7,977 nt of DNA, from assembly GCA_944359595.1 (NCBI GenBank), contig CALVSV010000143.1:1-7977 (forward strand). Direction: 5' to 3'. Shown piece after piece: positions 77-7,577 of the stretch. The notes beneath the pieces were generated by a model. That model was not told the origin of the DNA and did not search any database. It saw nothing but the letters and a program-made list of their open reading frames with translations. Made by a program: the position numbers and the translations under genes. This DNA is from an uncultured Bacilli bacterium. Lineage in GTDB: Bacteria; Bacillota_I; Bacilli_A; RF39; UBA660. Each line of letters begins with the position of its first letter. Position 1 is the first letter of the stretch.

Positions 77-268
77 ATGACTGCAAAGGAAACATTAGAT
101 TTGATTTCTAAACAATGGTGTGACTTAAATGATTTAAGAAAGCTTACTGGTTTAGGCAAAAATAGTGCTTCTAAATTAAAAAGTGGAATTAGAATTAGTT
201 TGTTAAATAAAGGTTATCAATTACCTAGTAAATTGTTACCAATGAACGAAGTTGTGAATTATTTGTAA
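77..268 (+). CDS. Small helix-turn-helix-like protein, mobile-element type
   Basis: A 63-residue soluble protein with no membrane segment. The middle (about residues 17-36, around LRKLTGLGKNSASKLKSG) reads as a helix-turn-helix: a hydrophobic helix, a Gly turn, then a basic helix. The following LLNKGYQLPSKLLPMNEVVNYL resembles the C-terminal half of the short excisionase-like or DUF3173-like proteins found on Firmicutes phages and integrative elements. That resemblance is from memory of the family pattern, not from a search. The start is set by a GTGAGGTG ribosome binding site at 64-71, five bases before the ATG. No promoter is visible between the upstream terminator and the start, so expression may come from readthrough. 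Members I recall continue somewhat past the VVxYL motif, so the C-terminus may be shortened. The stop codon lies inside a long inverted repeat. No integrase gene follows, so this may be a remnant of a mobile element. Confidence 0.7.
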   Translation: MTAKETLDLISKQWCDLNDLRKLTGLGKNSASKLKSGIRISLLNKGYQLPSKLLPMNEVVNYL

Positions 269-345
269 ATGGTAATATAAAAAGTAATAAAAACTATGCA
301 CTTTTAACTTTGCCGTTTTTATTACTTTTTATATTACCATTTACA
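264..345. repeat. Perfect 31-bp inverted repeat at convergent gene ends
   Basis: Bases 264-294 are the exact reverse complement of 315-345, separated by a 20-base spacer (295-314). I checked the match base by base and found no mismatch. The left arm contains the stop codon of the helix-turn-helix gene and touches the stop codon of the minus-strand peptide gene. The right arm encodes peptide residues 27-36. Transcripts from either direction would form a very long hairpin. Neither side is followed by a clean T run, so it is not a textbook terminator, although T5 runs occur inside the arms. It could end transcription, protect 3' ends, or mark a past rearrangement. Confidence 0.9.
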
Positions 346-422: not shown

Positions 423-424
423 AG

Positions 425-430
425 ACCTAC
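425..430 (-). promoter_or_regulatory. Possible Shine-Dalgarno masking site for the peptide gene
   Basis: The bases just after the GGAGG core read GTAGGT on the minus strand. They are exactly complementary to ACCTAC in the leader RNA (positions 540-545). That leader segment also forms one side of a hairpin (537-544 with 571-577), so the two pairings exclude each other. A switch controlling translation of the peptide is possible. A 6-bp match can easily occur by chance, so this is only suggestive. Confidence 0.25.
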
Positions 431-469
431 CTCCTTTACAAATTTATAAAATAGACTTACATAAAGGGG

Positions 470-696
470 TAAGCAGCGACCTGAAATCTTAATTAATCTC
501 CATATACCTGGCAAATTACGTCATGTATGGTAAGCACTTGTAGGTGAGCTGCAGCTTGTCTGCACGCTAACCACAAGGGCTCCATATCATTACCTAGCTA
601 TTGCGTACAGCAATGCTAATACTCCCATAAAAAGAGTTCCGCGGACTTTCACCGAATTGATTGTACAAAATAAAGCTATTATCTGCTCCTAAGTAC
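470..696 (-). ncRNA. Structured leader RNA or riboswitch-like candidate
   Basis: Read on the minus strand from about 696, this stretch is much richer in G+C than the genome around it (30 of 60 bases in 541-600) and has no open frame of note. It folds locally into several hairpins: 642-644/652-654 (CGG, loop TGAAAGT, CCG); 621-626/632-637; 595-604/610-618 (nine pairs, one bulge); 537-543/571-577 enclosing 547-554/560-568 (eight pairs, one bulge); and 500-504/526-530. The ends can close as AGCAG (683-687) with CTGCT (472-476). Two near-identical motifs, AGGTAATGATATGGAG and AGGTATATGGAG, occur within it. It lies between an extended -10 promoter and a 42-residue peptide gene. I could not match it to cobalamin, FMN, TPP, SAM, lysine, glycine, T-box, c-di-GMP, c-di-AMP, RNase P, SRP or tmRNA signatures from memory. 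It may be a riboswitch, a stand-alone RNA or a known class I failed to recognise. Confidence 0.6.
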
Positions 697-702
697 ATAT
701 AA

Positions 703-711
703 ATTATATCA
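703..711 (-). promoter_or_regulatory. Extended -10 promoter of the leader RNA
   Basis: The minus strand reads TGATATAAT, a perfect TATAAT (703-708) with the TGn extension (709-711). No good -35 is present at the usual distance, as is normal for extended -10 promoters. Transcription would start near 696, giving a leader of about 270 bases before the peptide gene. Confidence 0.6.
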
Positions 712-1071: not shown

Positions 1072-1743
1072 GTGGAAATATTAAGAATAGAAAATTTAAC
1101 AAAAATATATGGTAAAGATACAACTAAGGTCGTCGCATTAGATCATGTATCATTTACAGTTGAAAAAGGTGAATTTATTGCGATAGTAGGTGCTAGTGGA
1201 TCGGGCAAATCAACGTTACTACACTTAATAGGAGGTGTGGATAGACCTACAAGTGGTAAAGTATATATCGATGGAAAAGATATATTTAATTTTAATGATG
1301 ATAAATTAGCGATATTTAGAAGAAGACAAGTTGGATTAATATATCAATTTTATAACTTAATACCTATACTAAATGTAGAAGAAAATATTACATTACCATT
1401 AAGTTTAGATAATAGAAAAATTGATAAAAAAGAATTAAATGAAATGTTAAAATTATTAGGACTACAAAATAGGAGATATCATTTACCAAATGAATTATCT
1501 GGTGGACAACAACAAAGAACTAGTATTGGACGTGCTTTAATTACAAATCCAGCAATAATACTTGCTGATGAGCCAACTGGTAATTTGGATTCAAAATCTA
1601 GCGATGAAATTGTTTCATTATTAAGAAAAACTAATAAAGATTTAAAGCAAACAATAATAATGATTACACATAACTTAGAAATAGCAAAATATGCAGATCG
1701 AATAATAAAAATTGAAGATGGTAAAATTATATCGGAGGATTAA
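1072..1743 (+). CDS. ABC transporter ATP-binding protein (MacB/LolD/BceA type)
   Basis: A 223-residue ATPase of full length for this family, acting on the cytoplasmic face to power the permease encoded next. Walker A GASGSGKST is at 40-48, the Q-loop Gln at 92 (YQFYNL), the signature LSGGQQQR at 142-149, Walker B IILADEP at 162-168 with catalytic Glu167, the D-loop GNLD at 170-173 and the H-loop His200. All residues needed for ATP hydrolysis are present. The layout and short length match ATPases that partner FtsX-domain permeases (MacB, LolD, and the BceA class that handles antimicrobial peptides) rather than importers. The start codon is GTG, set by an AAAGGAGGAG ribosome binding site at 1057-1066. 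It is the first gene of the operon, and the next gene begins one base after its stop codon. The transported substrate is not evident. Confidence 0.95.
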   Translation: MEILRIENLTKIYGKDTTKVVALDHVSFTVEKGEFIAIVGASGSGKSTLLHLIGGVDRPTSGKVYIDGKDIFNFNDDKLAIFRRRQVGLIYQFYNLIPILNVEENITLPLSLDNRKIDKKELNEMLKLLGLQNRRYHLPNELSGGQQQRTSIGRALITNPAIILADEPTGNLDSKSSDEIVSLLRKTNKDLKQTIIMITHNLEIAKYADRIIKIEDGKIISED

Positions 1744-1744
1744 T

Positions 1745-4342
1745 ATGAATATATTAAGTAAACTAACTATTAAAAATTTAAAATTAAATAAGAAACGAAC
1801 AACGGTAGCTATCATTGGAATAATTTTATCAGTTGCACTTATAACAAGTGTATCTACTATGTATTCTAGTCTAATTAAATCATTAATAGAATATGAAACA
1901 TATGAAAAAGGAGATTTTCATGTTGCATTTTATGATGTACCAGTAAAAGATATTAATACTTTTAAAAATAATAGAGCACTTCAAAATATATATACAGTTA
2001 AAAATATTGGTTATGCAAAACTTAGCGATTCAAAAAACGAATATAAACCATATGCATATATTAAAGAATTTTCAAAAGAATCATTAAATAATTTATCTGT
2101 AAAATTAGTACAAGGAAGATTGCCTAAAAATAATTCTGAAATAGTAATTCCTACACATTTAAAAACAAACGGAAGAGTAGAACTAAAAATAGGTGATACG
2201 ATCAATCTAGATATTGGATCTAGAGTTAGTGATAATCATATATTGGATCAAGATACTCCATATACAAATGCTTCAAACGAGAGTATTATTAATACATATA
2301 AAAAAGAATATAAAATTGTTGGTATCATTGAAAGACCTGCAACTAACATTGAAAGCTTCGAAGCACCAGGTTATACATTTATAAGTTTTAATGAAGATAT
2401 ATCACTTGATAGTAATGTTGATATATATGTAAAATTTAGTAAAAAATACTTAAATGATATATATAAAATAACTGCTAAAATATTAAATATAGATGATAAT
2501 ATATTAACTAAATATTATTCATCTAATATATTGACAAATGATGAATATCAAAAATATAATAATGAACTTGAAAAGTCGAAATATAAAATAAATGTAAATG
2601 ACTATTTAATAAAACTTGAAGTAAATCCACTATCTGAAAATACAGCTGGTGATATGGGTTTTGTTGTAGGAATAGTATGTATAATAATTGTAATTACATC
2701 AGTATTTTGTATAAAGAATAGTTTTGATATATCGATAACTGAAAAAACAAAACAATATGGAATGTTAAGAAGTATAGGAGCAACAAAAAAACAAATAAAA
2801 AAGAATGTATTTTATGAAGCTAGTATATTAGGTATTATTGCTATACCAATAGGAATTATTATGGGATTGTTTGCCTCATATATATTAATAATAGTAACTA
2901 ATCATTTTATTAAAAATTCATTATCTCAAGGTTTAAAATTATATTTTTCAGTTAATTTAATTGCTATTATAGTATCGATAATATTAGGTATAATAACTAT
3001 ATATTTATCTGCTATTAAAAGCGCTATAAAGGCATCAAAAGTATCACCTATAGAAAGTATTAAGAATAGTGGAGAAATAAAGTTAAAGAGAAAAAAGCTT
3101 AAAACACCAAAAATAATTAATAAAATATTAGGTATAGGTGGAGAAATATCTTATAAAAATTTAAAAAGAAATAAGAAAAAATATCGTACTACAATAATAT
3201 CTATAATAGTATCTGTATCTGTTTTTATCGCATTATCAACGTTTATGAATTTGGCTTTTACAACTATTGATCAAGAATTAAAAAAATCAGAATATAATAT
3301 TTCTTTATCTGCTAATTATGATAATGATGAACAATATAACAAAATATTAGAAACTACTAAATTAGATAATATAGAAAATTTTACTGTATATAGAAATATG
3401 CCATTACAAGTAAATAATCCAAAATTTAATAATGATTATATAAAAATAATGAATATTGATAAAAATAATTATGATGATTATATTAATGTTATGACACTAG
3501 GTGAAGTTCAATATAAAAAATATATTGATAAATTAGGTTTAGATTATAATGAAGTTAAAGATAAAGGTATATTAATAGATAAACAAAAAATAGGTAGATT
3601 AAATGATAATAAAATAAAATATTATACAACACGTATATATGATTATAGTGTAAATGATAAAATATCATTAAATATAGATAATAATATTCAAGAAATAACT
3701 ATTGCTTATTTAACTGATATTAAACCATTTGGTTTTAAATATAATGAATCTACTAAATTAATAATATCTGATGAATATTATGATAAATTAAATAGAAATA
3801 ATAATCAAATAGATATATTTTATGAATCTAATAATCCAAATAAATTACAAGATAATATAGATGAACTATTAACTAACGAAATATATACTGTTAATAATAT
3901 TATGGAACAAGTTAAAACCATGGAAAATATATATATACTTATTGGAATATTTTTATATGGATTTATAATAGTAATATCATTAATTGGTATAACTAATATA
4001 TTTAATACTATAACAACTAATATGAATCTTAGAAAACAAGAATTTGCTATGTTAAAATCTATAGGAATGACTAATAAAGAATTTAATAGAATGATTAGCT
4101 TAGAAAGTTTGTTTATTGGATTAAAATCATTAATATTTGGTATACCAATAGGTGTAGCACTATCATATTTATTGTTTTATGTATTAGGTGGTGAATCTAC
4201 AATTACTTTAAAATTTCCTATAACTGCAATAATAATATCGATAATATGTGTATTACTATTAATAACTTGTATAATGAAATATTCTATAAATAAAATAAGA
4301 AAACAAAATATAATAGAAACAATAAGAAATGAAAATATATAA
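1745..4342 (+). CDS. Duplicated FtsX-type ABC permease, 865 residues
   Basis: The membrane partner of the preceding ATPase. Eight membrane spans are visible: about residues 20-43, 304-324, 358-384, 403-424, 481-505, 729-754, 795-814 and 825-845. They form two copies of the FtsX layout (one span, large outside domain, three spans). The outside domains are about residues 45-300 and 506-728. Each half carries the typical FtsX motif after its second span (KTKQYGMLRSIGATKKQIKK near 335-353 and RKQEFAMLKSIGMTNKEF near 763-780) and an amphipathic end (SAIKASKVSPIESIK; NKIRKQNIIETIRNE). This is unlike the 10-span BceB class. Such permeases move or extract peptides and lipoprotein-like substrates without forming a classic channel. 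The ATG at 1745 is chosen over an upstream in-frame ATG at 1712 because GGAGGA at 1734-1739 fits it. The second outside domain is unusually rich in Asn, Asp, Tyr and Ile. Confidence 0.9.
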   Translation: MNILSKLTIKNLKLNKKRTTVAIIGIILSVALITSVSTMYSSLIKSLIEYETYEKGDFHVAFYDVPVKDINTFKNNRALQNIYTVKNIGYAKLSDSKNEYKPYAYIKEFSKESLNNLSVKLVQGRLPKNNSEIVIPTHLKTNGRVELKIGDTINLDIGSRVSDNHILDQDTPYTNASNESIINTYKKEYKIVGIIERPATNIESFEAPGYTFISFNEDISLDSNVDIYVKFSKKYLNDIYKITAKILNIDDNILTKYYSSNILTNDEYQKYNNELEKSKYKINVNDYLIKLEVNPLSENTAGDMGFVVGIVCIIIVITSVFCIKNSFDISITEKTKQYGMLRSIGATKKQIKKNVFYEASILGIIAIPIGIIMGLFASYILIIVTNHFIKNSLSQGLKLYFSVNLIAIIVSIILGIITIYLSAIKSAIKASKVSPIESIKNSGEIKLKRKKLKTPKIINKILGIGGEISYKNLKRNKKKYRTTIISIIVSVSVFIALSTFMNLAFTTIDQELKKSEYNISLSANYDNDEQYNKILETTKLDNIENFTVYRNMPLQVNNPKFNNDYIKIMNIDKNNYDDYINVMTLGEVQYKKYIDKLGLDYNEVKDKGILIDKQKIGRLNDNKIKYYTTRIYDYSVNDKISLNIDNNIQEITIAYLTDIKPFGFKYNESTKLIISDEYYDKLNRNNNQIDIFYESNNPNKLQDNIDELLTNEIYTVNNIMEQVKTMENIYILIGIFLYGFIIVISLIGITNIFNTITTNMNLRKQEFAMLKSIGMTNKEFNRMISLESLFIGLKSLIFGIPIGVALSYLLFYVLGGESTITLKFPITAIIISIICVLLLITCIMKYSINKIRKQNIIETIRNENI

Positions 4343-4365
4343 AAACGCATTTTGCGTTTTTTGTT
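4341..4365 (+). terminator. Intra-operon terminator-like hairpin
   Basis: AAAAACGCA (4341-4349) pairs with TGCGTTTTT (4353-4361) around the loop TTT, with one more T and then GTTGT following. It begins on the last bases of the permease stop codon and lies 30 bases before the response regulator start. The core stem is short and AT-rich, so partial termination is likely. That would make the transporter more abundant than the two-component genes. Confidence 0.55.
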
Positions 4366-4391
4366 GTATAATATAGATGGAGGTATTATAT

Positions 4392-5048
4392 ATGACTATT
4401 TTACTAGTAGAAGATAACTATAGTATAATTAAGGGATTAGTTTATGCCCTAAATGAACAAAATTATAATGTTATATACAAGACTAATATTAAAGATACTA
4501 TTCTATTTTTAGATAATAATATAGTTGATTTAATTATATTAGATATTATGTTACCAGATGGTGATGGTTTCTATTTATATAAAAATATTATTAAGAATAA
4601 AAATATACCAACTATATTTTTAACTGCACAATATGATGAAGAAACTATAGTAAATAGTCTTAATATAGGAGCAGAAGATTATATTGTTAAACCATTTAGA
4701 ACAAAGGAACTAATTGCTAGAATAAATAAAATATTGTTAAGAAATAAACAATCTAATATTATTAGAGTAGGAAATATAAGTTTTAATATTGATAAAATGT
4801 TAGTATATAAAAATAATGATTTAATAGCATTAACTCCATTAGAATTGAAAATATTATATTTATTGTTTACTAATGTTAATAAGGTAGTTACTAGAAATAT
4901 GATATTAGATGAAATATGGAACAGTACCGGTAATGATGTAGATGATCATACAATAACTGTATACTTAAAAAGAATTAGAGAAAAACTAAAAACAGATCTA
5001 ATAACTACTATTAAAGGAATAGGGTATAGAATAGATAATGAAAAATAA
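4392..5048 (+). CDS. OmpR-family response regulator
   Basis: A 218-residue two-domain regulator. The receiver domain (about 1-115) has the acidic pocket Glu7-Asp8, the phosphate acceptor Asp51 (LIILDIMLPDGDG), Thr78 (FLTA) and Lys100 (VKPF). The C-terminal winged helix (about 125-216) shows LTPLELKILYLLF, a recognition region with DDHTITVYLKRIREKL, and the wing motif TIKGIGYRI, all typical of OmpR/PhoB proteins. It should be phosphorylated by the kinase encoded next and bind DNA direct repeats; the TTGTAACTT pair upstream of this operon is the best candidate in the window. The ATG at 4392 is preferred over an in-frame ATG at 4377, because GGAGG at 4379-4383 lies eight bases before it and would be inside the gene otherwise. 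Its end overlaps the kinase gene by 11 bases, implying translational coupling. Confidence 0.93.
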   Translation: MTILLVEDNYSIIKGLVYALNEQNYNVIYKTNIKDTILFLDNNIVDLIILDIMLPDGDGFYLYKNIIKNKNIPTIFLTAQYDEETIVNSLNIGAEDYIVKPFRTKELIARINKILLRNKQSNIIRVGNISFNIDKMLVYKNNDLIALTPLELKILYLLFTNVNKVVTRNMILDEIWNSTGNDVDDHTITVYLKRIREKLKTDLITTIKGIGYRIDNEK

Positions 5049-6249
5049 AATTGATTTAAAAAAACATTTAAAACTTATATTTATAGTTATTGTTAGTATA
5101 GTAATTATATTTTTAATATTAAATATTTACGAATATAATAATTATACTAAAAATTATAATAATAAATTGAATAGTATTATTATTAGAATAAGAGAAAAAT
5201 ATCCTAAAATTAGCGAAGATGAACTTGTTAGTATATTAAATAGTAAAAATATTAATGATGATATATTATTAAAATATGGTATAGATAAAGATAAATATTC
5301 TATAATATTAGAAAATGATAATTTATTTCATAAATATATTATAATTAATTGTATAGTTTTAATATTATCAATATTAATAATTATATTAATATTTGTATTG
5401 TATGATAAAAAGAAAGATAATAAAATAAATGATATTATAAGATATATAAAAGAAATTAATAATGGAAATTATTCTTTAGAATTAGATACATTATCAGAAG
5501 ATGAATTATCTATATTAAAAAATGAATTATATAAAATTACTATTAAATTAAAAGAAAACTCTATTAATTCACTAAATGATAAAATTAATTTAAAAAAATC
5601 TTTAGAAGATATATCTCATCAAATTAAAACACCAATAACATCTATTTTAATAATGTTAGATATATTGATAGATAATAATATTGATTATAATAAATCACAA
5701 GAATTTATTAAAGATATTAAAAAAAATATATTAAATATTAATTTATTGATACAAGAAATATTAAAATTATCAAAGTTTGATGCTAATGCAATTAAATTTG
5801 TTAATAAGAATTATTATATTTATAAAATGATAAATAAGGCGGTTGAAAATGTATCTATATTATGTGATTTAAAAAACATTGATATTGTTGTTGAAGGTAA
5901 TAAAAACATAAAAATTAATTGTGATATGATGTGGCAAGTAGAAGCATTAACAAATATAATTAAAAACTCAATAGAACATGCAAACGATAATTCAAAAATA
6001 TATATTATGTATGATGAAAATAACTTGTATACTAGTGTAATTATACGAAATTATGGTTCTACTATAAACAAAAAAGATATGAAGCACATATTTGAAAGAT
6101 TTTATAGGGGACATAACGCAAAAAGTGATAGTATTGGTATAGGACTAGCACTATCTAAAACTATTATTGAAAATAATAATGGGAAAATAATTGTAAATTC
6201 TAAAAATAATGTAACAGAATTTATTATTAAATATTTTAATAGGAGCTGA
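5038..6249 (+). CDS. Membrane sensor histidine kinase
   Basis: A 403-residue kinase anchored by two membrane spans (about 12-31 and 99-122) that enclose an outside segment of about 65 residues (32-98), rich in Asn, Lys and Ile. After a short linker (about 123-185), the phosphorylation site is His194 in DISHQIKTP. The ATPase domain carries the N box (NIIKNSIEHA, 306-315), a G1 region with Asn where Asp is usual (IRNYGSTI, 336-343), the F box IFERFYRG (351-358) and the G2 box GIGLALSK (367-374). Kinases paired with BceAB transporters usually have almost no outside loop; this one has a real sensing segment, so direct ligand detection is possible. No separate ribosome binding site is placed well, and the start overlaps the regulator gene, so translation is coupled. 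It should signal to the response regulator encoded just upstream. Confidence 0.93.
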   Translation: MKNKIDLKKHLKLIFIVIVSIVIIFLILNIYEYNNYTKNYNNKLNSIIIRIREKYPKISEDELVSILNSKNINDDILLKYGIDKDKYSIILENDNLFHKYIIINCIVLILSILIIILIFVLYDKKKDNKINDIIRYIKEINNGNYSLELDTLSEDELSILKNELYKITIKLKENSINSLNDKINLKKSLEDISHQIKTPITSILIMLDILIDNNIDYNKSQEFIKDIKKNILNINLLIQEILKLSKFDANAIKFVNKNYYIYKMINKAVENVSILCDLKNIDIVVEGNKNIKINCDMMWQVEALTNIIKNSIEHANDNSKIYIMYDENNLYTSVIIRNYGSTINKKDMKHIFERFYRGHNAKSDSIGIGLALSKTIIENNNGKIIVNSKNNVTEFIIKYFNRS

Positions 6250-6253
6250 TTTT

Positions 6254-6652
6254 ATGAAAATAAAAAAAATAATTATAATTATAGTAATAATATTGTTATG
6301 TGGTTGTGTTAAAAAAGCAAAATTAAATGATATAAATTATAATAATTTAATTTCAAAACTAGATAATAAAGATACATTTATATTATCTATAAATATTAAT
6401 GATAATAATGAATATACTAAAAATTTAAATACTATTATAGAAACATATAATATAAATATTATTAATATAGATGTTGATGATTTGAATGATAAAGAAAAAA
6501 AAGATCTAAAGAAAAAATTGAAATATGAAAATGTTAATACTTTATTGTTTATTAAGGATGGTTTAGAAGATAATCCAAACAATAGGGTTGAAGAGGATAT
6601 GAATGTAGAACAAATGATAGAAATATTTAAAAAAACATCATATATTGATTAA
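6254..6652 (+). CDS. Small lipoprotein, thioredoxin-like without active-site cysteines
   Basis: A 132-residue protein with a lipoprotein signal: basic MKIKK, a hydrophobic run of Ile/Val/Leu, and the lipobox LCGC with Cys18 as the likely lipidated residue. The mature part would be anchored outside the membrane. Its pattern resembles a small thioredoxin fold: NKDTFILSIN as the first strand, a helix, NINIINIDVDDL as the second strand, then VNTLLFIKDG as the strand pair before the last helix (VEQMIEIFKKTSYI). The place where CxxC would stand reads NINDNNEYTK and the usual cis-proline is missing, so it could not do redox chemistry. The fold is inferred by eye. AGGAG at 6241-6245 lies eight bases before the ATG, inside the end of the kinase gene, which stops five bases before this start. 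As the last gene of the transporter and two-component operon, it may bind ligand or assist sensing or immunity. Confidence 0.8.
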   Translation: MKIKKIIIIIVIILLCGCVKKAKLNDINYNNLISKLDNKDTFILSININDNNEYTKNLNTIIETYNINIINIDVDDLNDKEKKDLKKKLKYENVNTLLFIKDGLEDNPNNRVEEDMNVEQMIEIFKKTSYID

Positions 6653-6702: not shown

Positions 6703-6879
6703 CTATTTTTCGTCTTCACCTTTATCCATATATTTAAGAGCGAAATCACAAGCAAGAATTACAAATCTTGAAAATGAAATGTCTTTTCCTGTTATAGCTT
6801 CATTTATTTTATCAATTAACTCTACAGGAAATCTAACTGTTTTGTTTTCGCTTTCTTTTTTAGTTAATTTAAATTCCAT
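6703..6879 (-). CDS. Ribbon-helix-helix DNA-binding protein, 58 residues
   Basis: The minus-strand frame starts at 6879 and stops at 6703-6705. After a charged N-terminus, the motif NKTVRFPVELIDKINEAI forms a beta strand and first helix, and KDISFSRFVILACDFALKYM forms the turn and second helix of an Arc/MetJ/CopG-type ribbon-helix-helix. The KTVRFP strand with alternating exposed residues is the DNA-contacting element. A perfect AGGAGGT ribosome binding site lies at 6887-6893, seven bases before the ATG. Such proteins work as dimers and often regulate themselves or a neighbouring gene; the divergent D,D-peptidase gene is the nearest candidate target. The closest general description is the small Arc-like or YlcI/YnfO-like group common in gut Firmicutes, recalled from memory. 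No toxin partner is seen next to it, which argues against an antitoxin role. Confidence 0.85.
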   Translation of the reverse strand: MEFKLTKKESENKTVRFPVELIDKINEAITGKDISFSRFVILACDFALKYMDKGEDEK

Positions 6880-7004: not shown

Positions 7005-7577
7005 ATGAAAAGATACTATGATAAATATTTAACATTGGTAAACAAAGAAAATAAAATAGATGATGATTTTGAATATAACTTAATAAATGTATATAGTGAA
7101 TATAAAAAAAGTTATATATTAGTTGACAAAGAAGCATATATTAATTATATATTATTGAAAAACAAATTAAAAAAAATGAATATTATTATAGATATTGAAA
7201 GTGCATATAGAACTCATGAATATCAAAAAAAATTGTACGATAGATTAGTTAAGGAAAAAAGTGTTGAATATGCAAATAAATATATTGCTAAACCATATTA
7301 TTCTGAACACGAAACAGGATTGGCTATAGATATTAGTATATTAAAAAATAATAAATATTATATAGAACATGAATTATTAAATTTAGATGAATTAAAAATT
7401 ATTCATAAAGTGATGTATAAATATGGCTTTATATTAAGATATCCTAAAAATAAAGAACATATAACAAAATATAATTATGAACCATGGCATATAAGATATG
7501 TTGGTAAGTTTGCTAAAAATATGTATGAAAGAAATTTAACTCTAGAAGAATTTTTATATTTATATTTAAAAAAATAA
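7005..7577 (+). CDS. VanY/VanXY-type D,D-peptidase, peptidase M15 family
   Basis: A 190-residue zinc peptidase that should trim the terminal D-alanine, or split D-Ala-D-Ala, in peptidoglycan precursors. Key M15 motifs are present: SAYRT with Arg69 (substrate binding), SEHETGLAID at 100-109 supplying His102 and Asp109 as zinc ligands, and EPWH at 159-162 supplying catalytic Glu159 and zinc ligand His162, followed by IRYVG. YGFILRYP at 140-147 is also typical. There is no signal peptide, membrane span or lipobox, and an in-frame stop at 6987-6989 prevents a longer N-terminus with a normal start. The protein is therefore predicted to stay in the cytoplasm, like VanXY of enterococci (similar length and arrangement from memory), whereas VanY-type carboxypeptidases are usually exported. 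The ribosome binding site is weak (GGTG at 6996-6999). No ligase or other glycopeptide-resistance gene is seen nearby, so a resistance role is not shown. Confidence 0.88.
   Translation: MKRYYDKYLTLVNKENKIDDDFEYNLINVYSEYKKSYILVDKEAYINYILLKNKLKKMNIIIDIESAYRTHEYQKKLYDRLVKEKSVEYANKYIAKPYYSEHETGLAIDISILKNNKYYIEHELLNLDELKIIHKVMYKYGFILRYPKNKEHITKYNYEPWHIRYVGKFAKNMYERNLTLEEFLYLYLKK

Follow-up and report, generated by a model that had tools for sequence, protein, structure and literature searches.

The window, the whole 7,977-nucleotide (nt) stretch of DNA from an uncultured Bacilli bacterium that we analysed, carries on its minus strand a structured leader of about 270 nt (425–697) followed by a short hydrophobic reading frame of 42 codons (294–422). 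An extended −10 promoter, read from the sequence as TATGATATAAT, lies upstream of the leader on the same strand, with its hexamer at 708–703 and its TG at 711–710 (TGATATAAT over 703–711), and its position places the predicted RNA start near 697. At the other end of the leader, a Shine–Dalgarno (SD) sequence (AAAGGAGGT; 437–429) precedes the ATG start codon at 422. The 42-codon frame runs into a palindrome with 31-bp perfect arms (264–345), on the far side of which lies a 63-codon frame on the plus strand (77–268). The rest of the window contains, in a row, a MacB/LolD-like ABC transporter, an OmpR-type response regulator, a histidine kinase and a small lipoprotein-like frame (1072–6652), a 58-residue YlcI/YnfO-like small protein scoring slightly over the NCBIfam cut-off (6703–6879), and a VanY-family D,D-carboxypeptidase-like protein (7005–7577), whose best NCBIfam model, VanXY, falls below the cut-off.

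An earlier sequence-only reading of this region had described an extended −10 promoter, some 270 G+C-rich, hairpin-dense bases and a strong ribosome-binding site before the 42-codon frame, and all three are borne out by our analysis. The motif TGATA[T/A]AAT is kept at the promoter position in the window and in five of the five aligned relatives described below. The leader (440–697) has a G+C content of 0.391, compared with 0.206 in the window outside 423–711, and the highest value for any 258-nt stretch starting past position 850 is 0.318. The minus strand of 423–700 folds at −80.1 kcal/mol (z = −2.46; 3 of 200 shuffles equal or better), and the plus strand gives a weaker signal that is still not flat (z = −1.86, matched or beaten by 8 of 200 shuffles). 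Minus-strand frames of at least 30 codons lying mainly inside the leader have 30, 31 and 42 codons. The same reading had recognised no known RNA class, and the Rfam covariance models agree: at gathering score, no family matched the window or the related loci L033 and L037–L040. In E-value mode, the window gave nine matches, mostly to microRNA models over the palindrome (263–347), and the sole match inside 423–711 was to rox2, on the plus strand (E = 0.41).

A search for the RNA in 291 genomes of the same family returned a DNA match in 28, one of which is the window's own genome and one of which, G067, matches along most of the RNA (70%); the matches in the other 26 span just 19–44 bases and were set aside as chance. 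At the G067 locus (L002, hereafter L037), the RNA is followed by a 66-residue membrane frame and then by a 390-residue reverse transcriptase (RT). The locus L033 (CAMMXG010000005.1, uncultured Mycoplasma sp.), found through a relative of the 65-residue protein P0002, consists of the RNA, an intact 65-residue membrane peptide and an RT frame, in this order, and its RNA and the start of its peptide frame are 87% identical to positions 340–778 of the window. Searches with the RT added L038 and L039 from the family and L042 from a sample of the order. In L038 and L039, the RNA precedes a 74-residue membrane frame and an RT that is 38–41% identical to that of L033; the L042 RT is 98% identical to that of L038, and these three loci form a second subgroup. 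The RT searches were positive in 3 of the 291 family genomes, in 4 of 385 sampled from the order and in none of 395 sampled from the class; two genera yielded one genome each (1 of 44 and 1 of 12), and both genomes were already known. No DNA relatives of the leader were found in phages or plasmids, no alignment of the peptide or the RT was confirmed in viral contigs, and no RT was detected in plasmids at 1e-20; among phages, three records contained an RT at 27% identity. A 17-base leader pattern matched one viral contig (L031), which was rejected as it has no similar leader.

We built a fold alignment (A4) of six RNAs, those of the window, L033, L037, L038, L039 and L042, which amount to about three independent points, as L038, L039 and L042 are close kin and so are the window and L033. 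The consensus fold comprises 58 pairs, 22 of which show changes on both sides, so that the structured RNA of the sequence-only reading does exhibit base-pair covariation among its homologues. In this fold, 90.8% of cells are paired, compared with 79.9% in shuffles and 36–42% when the partners are slid, and the covariation score is 0.414, compared with at most 0.099 when slid, although the consensus structure was derived from the same alignment, which favours the observed value in the slid control. The number of further pair types in the consensus does not exceed that in shuffles (194 of 500). By hand, the arms of three hairpins (H1, H2 and H3) can be traced in all six sequences and those of a fourth (H4) in three of the six. 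A long central hairpin (511–598), corresponding to consensus helices 2–5 with 84.7–100% of cells paired, is the predicted msd template, and the leader as a whole is a predicted retron non-coding RNA composed of an msr–msd region and a terminal SD hairpin. In the consensus fold, we tentatively assign an a1/a2 pair between 691–697 (a1) and 503–509 (a2), with seven of seven pairs formed in the window and L033 and six of seven in the four others, in which the mismatch falls at the same position; a single register applies to all six. The candidate a1 arm is also the 5′ arm of H1 (partner 662–666), so the a1/a2 and H1 states would be mutually exclusive, and the candidate a2 arm shares bases with another conserved helix (about 473–507). 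A conserved G lies two bases after a1 in all six sequences.

The 3′ end of the leader forms a hairpin over the SD sequence (425–472). Its helix comprises 12 consensus pairs, with 94.4% of cells paired compared with 36–62% when slid, and four pairs are changed on both sides, a count that 62 of 500 shuffles reach. The predicted pairing probability of the SD sequence is 0.83 in the window, L033 and L037 and 1.00 in L038, L039 and L042, and it is similarly 0.82, 1.00 and 0.85 in the more distant RT_VI-type loci L054, L045 and L046, respectively. These three loci were found by searching for RT_VI across the phylum, where 17 of 392 genomes gave hits; a scan of 14 of the 17 loci (all except L053, L058 and L061) showed a small membrane frame and a ribosome site before the RT in L045, L046 and L054, so that the presence of a ribosome site, and not how it pairs, decided their selection. 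Control SD sequences pair at a mean of 0.52 over 69 open reading frames, seven of which reach 0.8, and the nine chosen loci differ from these 69 controls (Mann–Whitney p = 7.9e-6; 2.3e-5 for six selected to represent separate lineages). Of 200 leader shuffles per locus, the observed pairing was reached by 20 (window), 12 (L033), 15 (L037), 0 (L038), 1 (L039), 2 (L042), 35 (L054), 2 (L045) and 10 (L046). Given these modest shuffle counts, the pairing at single loci is suggestive, and the weight is carried by the set. Two observations were counted against a translational lock: with a looser SD pattern, the SD sequence of the 50-residue peptide of phage Pmp14 is open (0.48), and the ribosome sites of the RT genes themselves pair at 0.61–0.92 in four of the five loci of these operons with a recognisable SD sequence. 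Under the same looser pattern, the value for phage KS5 is 0.83 or 0.60, depending on the start chosen. Within the partial coverage of our literature search, we found no report of SD masking in retrons, and papers containing both 'retron' and 'Shine-Dalgarno' concerned other subjects, as judged from their titles.

The intact relatives carry a retron-type RT, with the conserved structured RNA upstream of it. The four aligned RTs share the NAxxH, YVDD and ITG motifs, which we take to be marks of retron RTs, and the best PADLOC model for all four is RT_VI (159–168 bits; next model 81–93). An RT profile matches solved retron RTs, including Kva2, Ec67, Eco8, Ec78 and Ec86, and among 7,995 candidates scored it retrieved 111 proteins at E 1e-30, two of which bear the name of a Bacilli bacterium. 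On these sequence comparisons, the identity of the family as retrons is well supported. According to a passage of PMC8541194 that cites Mestre et al. 2020, type VI retrons comprise an RT, a DNA-binding protein and a small auxiliary protein. In our family, all four RTs belong to the RT_VI group and the 65–74-residue membrane peptides provide the small protein. In L033, L037, L038 and L039, there is no helix-turn-helix (HTH) gene between the RNA and the RT, and the peptide is followed directly by the RT; we therefore describe these retrons as type-VI-like without assigning them to type VI. An HTH gene is present before the RT in L045, Pmp14 and KS5, and in these type VI loci (the phage ones being L089 and L090, respectively) the HTH gene is preceded by a frame for a short cationic peptide, one end of which is hydrophobic. 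The window holds what are very likely the remains of a type-VI-like retron of the kind that lacks the HTH gene.

Frames of about 530 residues that resemble serine recombinases, as labelled by eye, lie near the intact retrons of L037, L038 and L039, and restriction-modification-like frames were also seen by eye near that of L038; such neighbours suggest that the intact retrons lie in mobile defence islands. Between the peptide and the RT of L038 (about 5590–5630), and at the matching position in L039, lies a G+C-rich hairpin with a T run after it, perhaps a terminator that limits RT expression.

The membrane peptides of the family are hydrophobic, with KD19 peaks of 3.0 (L033), 2.9 (L037), 1.7 (L038) and 1.8 (L039), and of 2.1, 1.5 and 2.5 in the distant loci L054, L045 and L046. 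AlphaFold2, with a ten-row alignment, predicts helices at residues 3–27 and 31–50 (mean pLDDT 75.9, pTM 0.51). P0002 matched no family in Pfam, PADLOC or PHROG at E 0.1. From its size, its hydrophobicity and its place in the operon, the peptide is likely to be toxic. Our partial survey of the literature found no report of tiny membrane effectors in type-VI-like retrons, and PMC12548924 yielded no match to the terms type VI, transmembrane, hydrophobic or small protein.

The tiny membrane-peptide gene proposed by the sequence-only reading stands in part: the hydrophobic 42-codon frame is real (KD19 peak 2.3), but the gene is not intact, having been both frameshifted and cut. The first 30 or so residues of the frame match the 65-residue proteins P0002–P0009 at 65–73% identity over 71–74% of the query, and the E values, 0.011–2.3, reflect the limited extent of the match; beyond these residues, the frame is out of register with the peptide gene and then enters unrelated sequence. 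Alignment with L033 places the frameshift near 368, within the first third of the peptide gene, and shows that homology stops at about 343, the outer edge of the palindrome. In the protein search, the 42-residue form (P0001) was found in the window only. The other side of the palindrome cuts a 79-residue HTH-like protein of an integrative-element module after 63 residues, over which the remaining frame is 98% identical to P0121. The 79-residue gene lies beside ATPase-like and HTH-repressor-like frames in all seven loci examined, in seven other genomes, and an integrase-like frame is also present in two of them (labels by eye). The longest contig is equal for P0125 and P0002 (64,310) and for P0156 and P0006 (83,228), and these shared values hint that intact retrons may ride on the integrative element of the 79-residue gene. 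The palindrome itself has nine partial matches on five other contigs of the same genome, and the partial palindromes on C138, C114, C153, C94 and C36 share the outer motif TGTAAATGGTAA with window 264–345; the family is perhaps a small mobile element or a set of terminal repeats. Had such an element simply inserted into the peptide gene, the other flank should contain the remainder of that gene, which it does not.

No RT occurs among the frames of the window, and no close RT was found in the window's own genome, the assembly of which is 92% complete. The best match there, on contig C98, is only 26% identical to the RT of L037 and is itself RT_VI-like. At this locus (L040/L049), the RT of 315 residues is followed by frames of 86 and 354 residues, and the upstream frame is CTP synthase-like. 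Since nothing but the RNA and the first part of the peptide is left, beside a truncated mobile-element gene, the window copy is most likely dead.

At a probability that we put at roughly 0.72, the window holds the front half of a decayed retron, the ~270-nt RNA of which, placed in relatives before a 65–74-residue peptide and an RT, is predicted to act both as the template for reverse transcription and as an SD lock on a likely toxic peptide. At the level of sequence, this reading is built on the promoter, the covarying fold, the operon order of the relatives, the SD sequence within a conserved stem, the frameshift and cut in the peptide gene and the lack of a close RT. The sequence-only reading had raised the idea of a riboswitch controlling the peptide, and the long, structured leader, with its ribosome site covered by a hairpin, does resemble a translational riboswitch. 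However, a ligand-sensing riboswitch, or any other classical leader that controls a small membrane peptide independently of reverse transcription, is highly improbable here, as no Rfam family matches at gathering score, the RNA of the relatives sits in an operon that has kept a retron-type RT, and the peptide to be controlled is broken in the window. An RT-based defence system other than a true retron, with neither msr–msd priming nor branched msDNA, would accommodate the weakness of the a1/a2 pair and the fact that the msDNA of the retron reading is a prediction, but we consider it improbable because the best RT models and the solved relatives are retron RTs, and the succession of small hairpins followed by a long one fits the msr–msd layout.

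Only slightly less improbable is that the window copy is alive as a derived, RT-less element, in which the RNA and a shortened one-helix peptide would act in the manner of a type I toxin, or in which the RNA would use another RT. The promoter, the consensus helices and the ribosome site are all retained, the 42-codon frame is still hydrophobic, and contig C98 offers a distant RT_VI-type enzyme. Against this stand the frameshift, the breakpoint at a palindrome that also cuts the neighbouring gene, the restriction of the 42-residue form to the window, and the low identity between the C98 RT and that of L037. A more serious contender, which we nevertheless regard as the less probable side of the question, grants the retron but takes the SD hairpin to be a by-product of AT-rich sequence that does not regulate the peptide. 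Shuffle tests that are modest at several loci, the unpaired SD sequence of Pmp14 and the likewise paired ribosome sites of the RT genes all speak for it, whereas the conservation of the SD stem with changes on both sides and the recurrence of a stem over the SD sequence in L054, L045 and L046 speak for a lock.

For the decayed-retron reading that we prefer, the family RNA is predicted to impose a translational lock on the peptide, and we propose that peptide translation is coupled to the RT. Bound to the 5′ hairpins, the RT would prime at the guanosine beside a1 and use the central hairpin as the template for msDNA, while the closed SD hairpin would allow little peptide to be made from the transcript. 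RT binding could shift the fold towards or away from the locked state, because a1 is the 5′ arm of H1 and a2 overlaps the helix just before the SD hairpin. Disturbance of the RT–msDNA–RNA complex, for example by phage infection, might then open the hairpin or free the peptide, and the released or newly made peptide would damage the membrane. Retrons likely defend against phages. In the retron model outlined in the abstract of PMC12548924, the RT–RNA–DNA complex holds a ready-made effector until infection. As a tentative and bolder generalization, which we think is rather unlikely to hold in full, Bacilli and their kin may harbour a retron subclass in which the template RNA is the 5′ leader of the toxin mRNA and its 3′ hairpin locks the ribosome site of a 35–74-residue membrane toxin; the grip of the RT, acting through the competing a1/a2, H1 and pre-hairpin helices, would set translation, and a phage that disturbs the RT or the msDNA would act by triggering new toxin synthesis and not by freeing toxin made beforehand.

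Should the template RNA also control the translation of a tiny membrane toxin, there would be a continuum between retrons and type I toxin–antitoxin systems, and small effectors of the kind that gene callers tend to overlook would become candidates for the action of type-VI-like retrons. The RNA of the window has kept its fold despite a broken peptide and a lost RT, as befits a retron in decay. What looks like an orphan 'structured leader' in an AT-rich genome may accordingly turn out to be a dead retron, not a new riboswitch.

Among known systems, the family resembles type VI retrons in that its RT best fits the PADLOC RT_VI model, a small protein precedes the RT and an RNA-rich leader precedes the small protein. 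It differs from them in that an HTH gene is absent between the RNA and the RT of L033, L037, L038 and L039, the small protein is a membrane peptide whose ribosome site lies in a conserved hairpin, and the window copy has no RT. In the Ec86/Eco1 retron, the effector and the RT lie behind the non-coding RNA. The present family shares this order of RNA, effector and RT, as well as several small hairpins followed by a long one, whereas its effector has only 65–74 residues and lies in the membrane, and its translation is predicted to be controlled by the RNA itself. Finally, the family shares with type I toxin–antitoxin systems, as excerpts of PMC8309996 and PMC11997105 describe them, a tiny hydrophobic peptide that RNA would keep from being translated; unlike in those systems, its operon includes an RT and a retron-like RNA.
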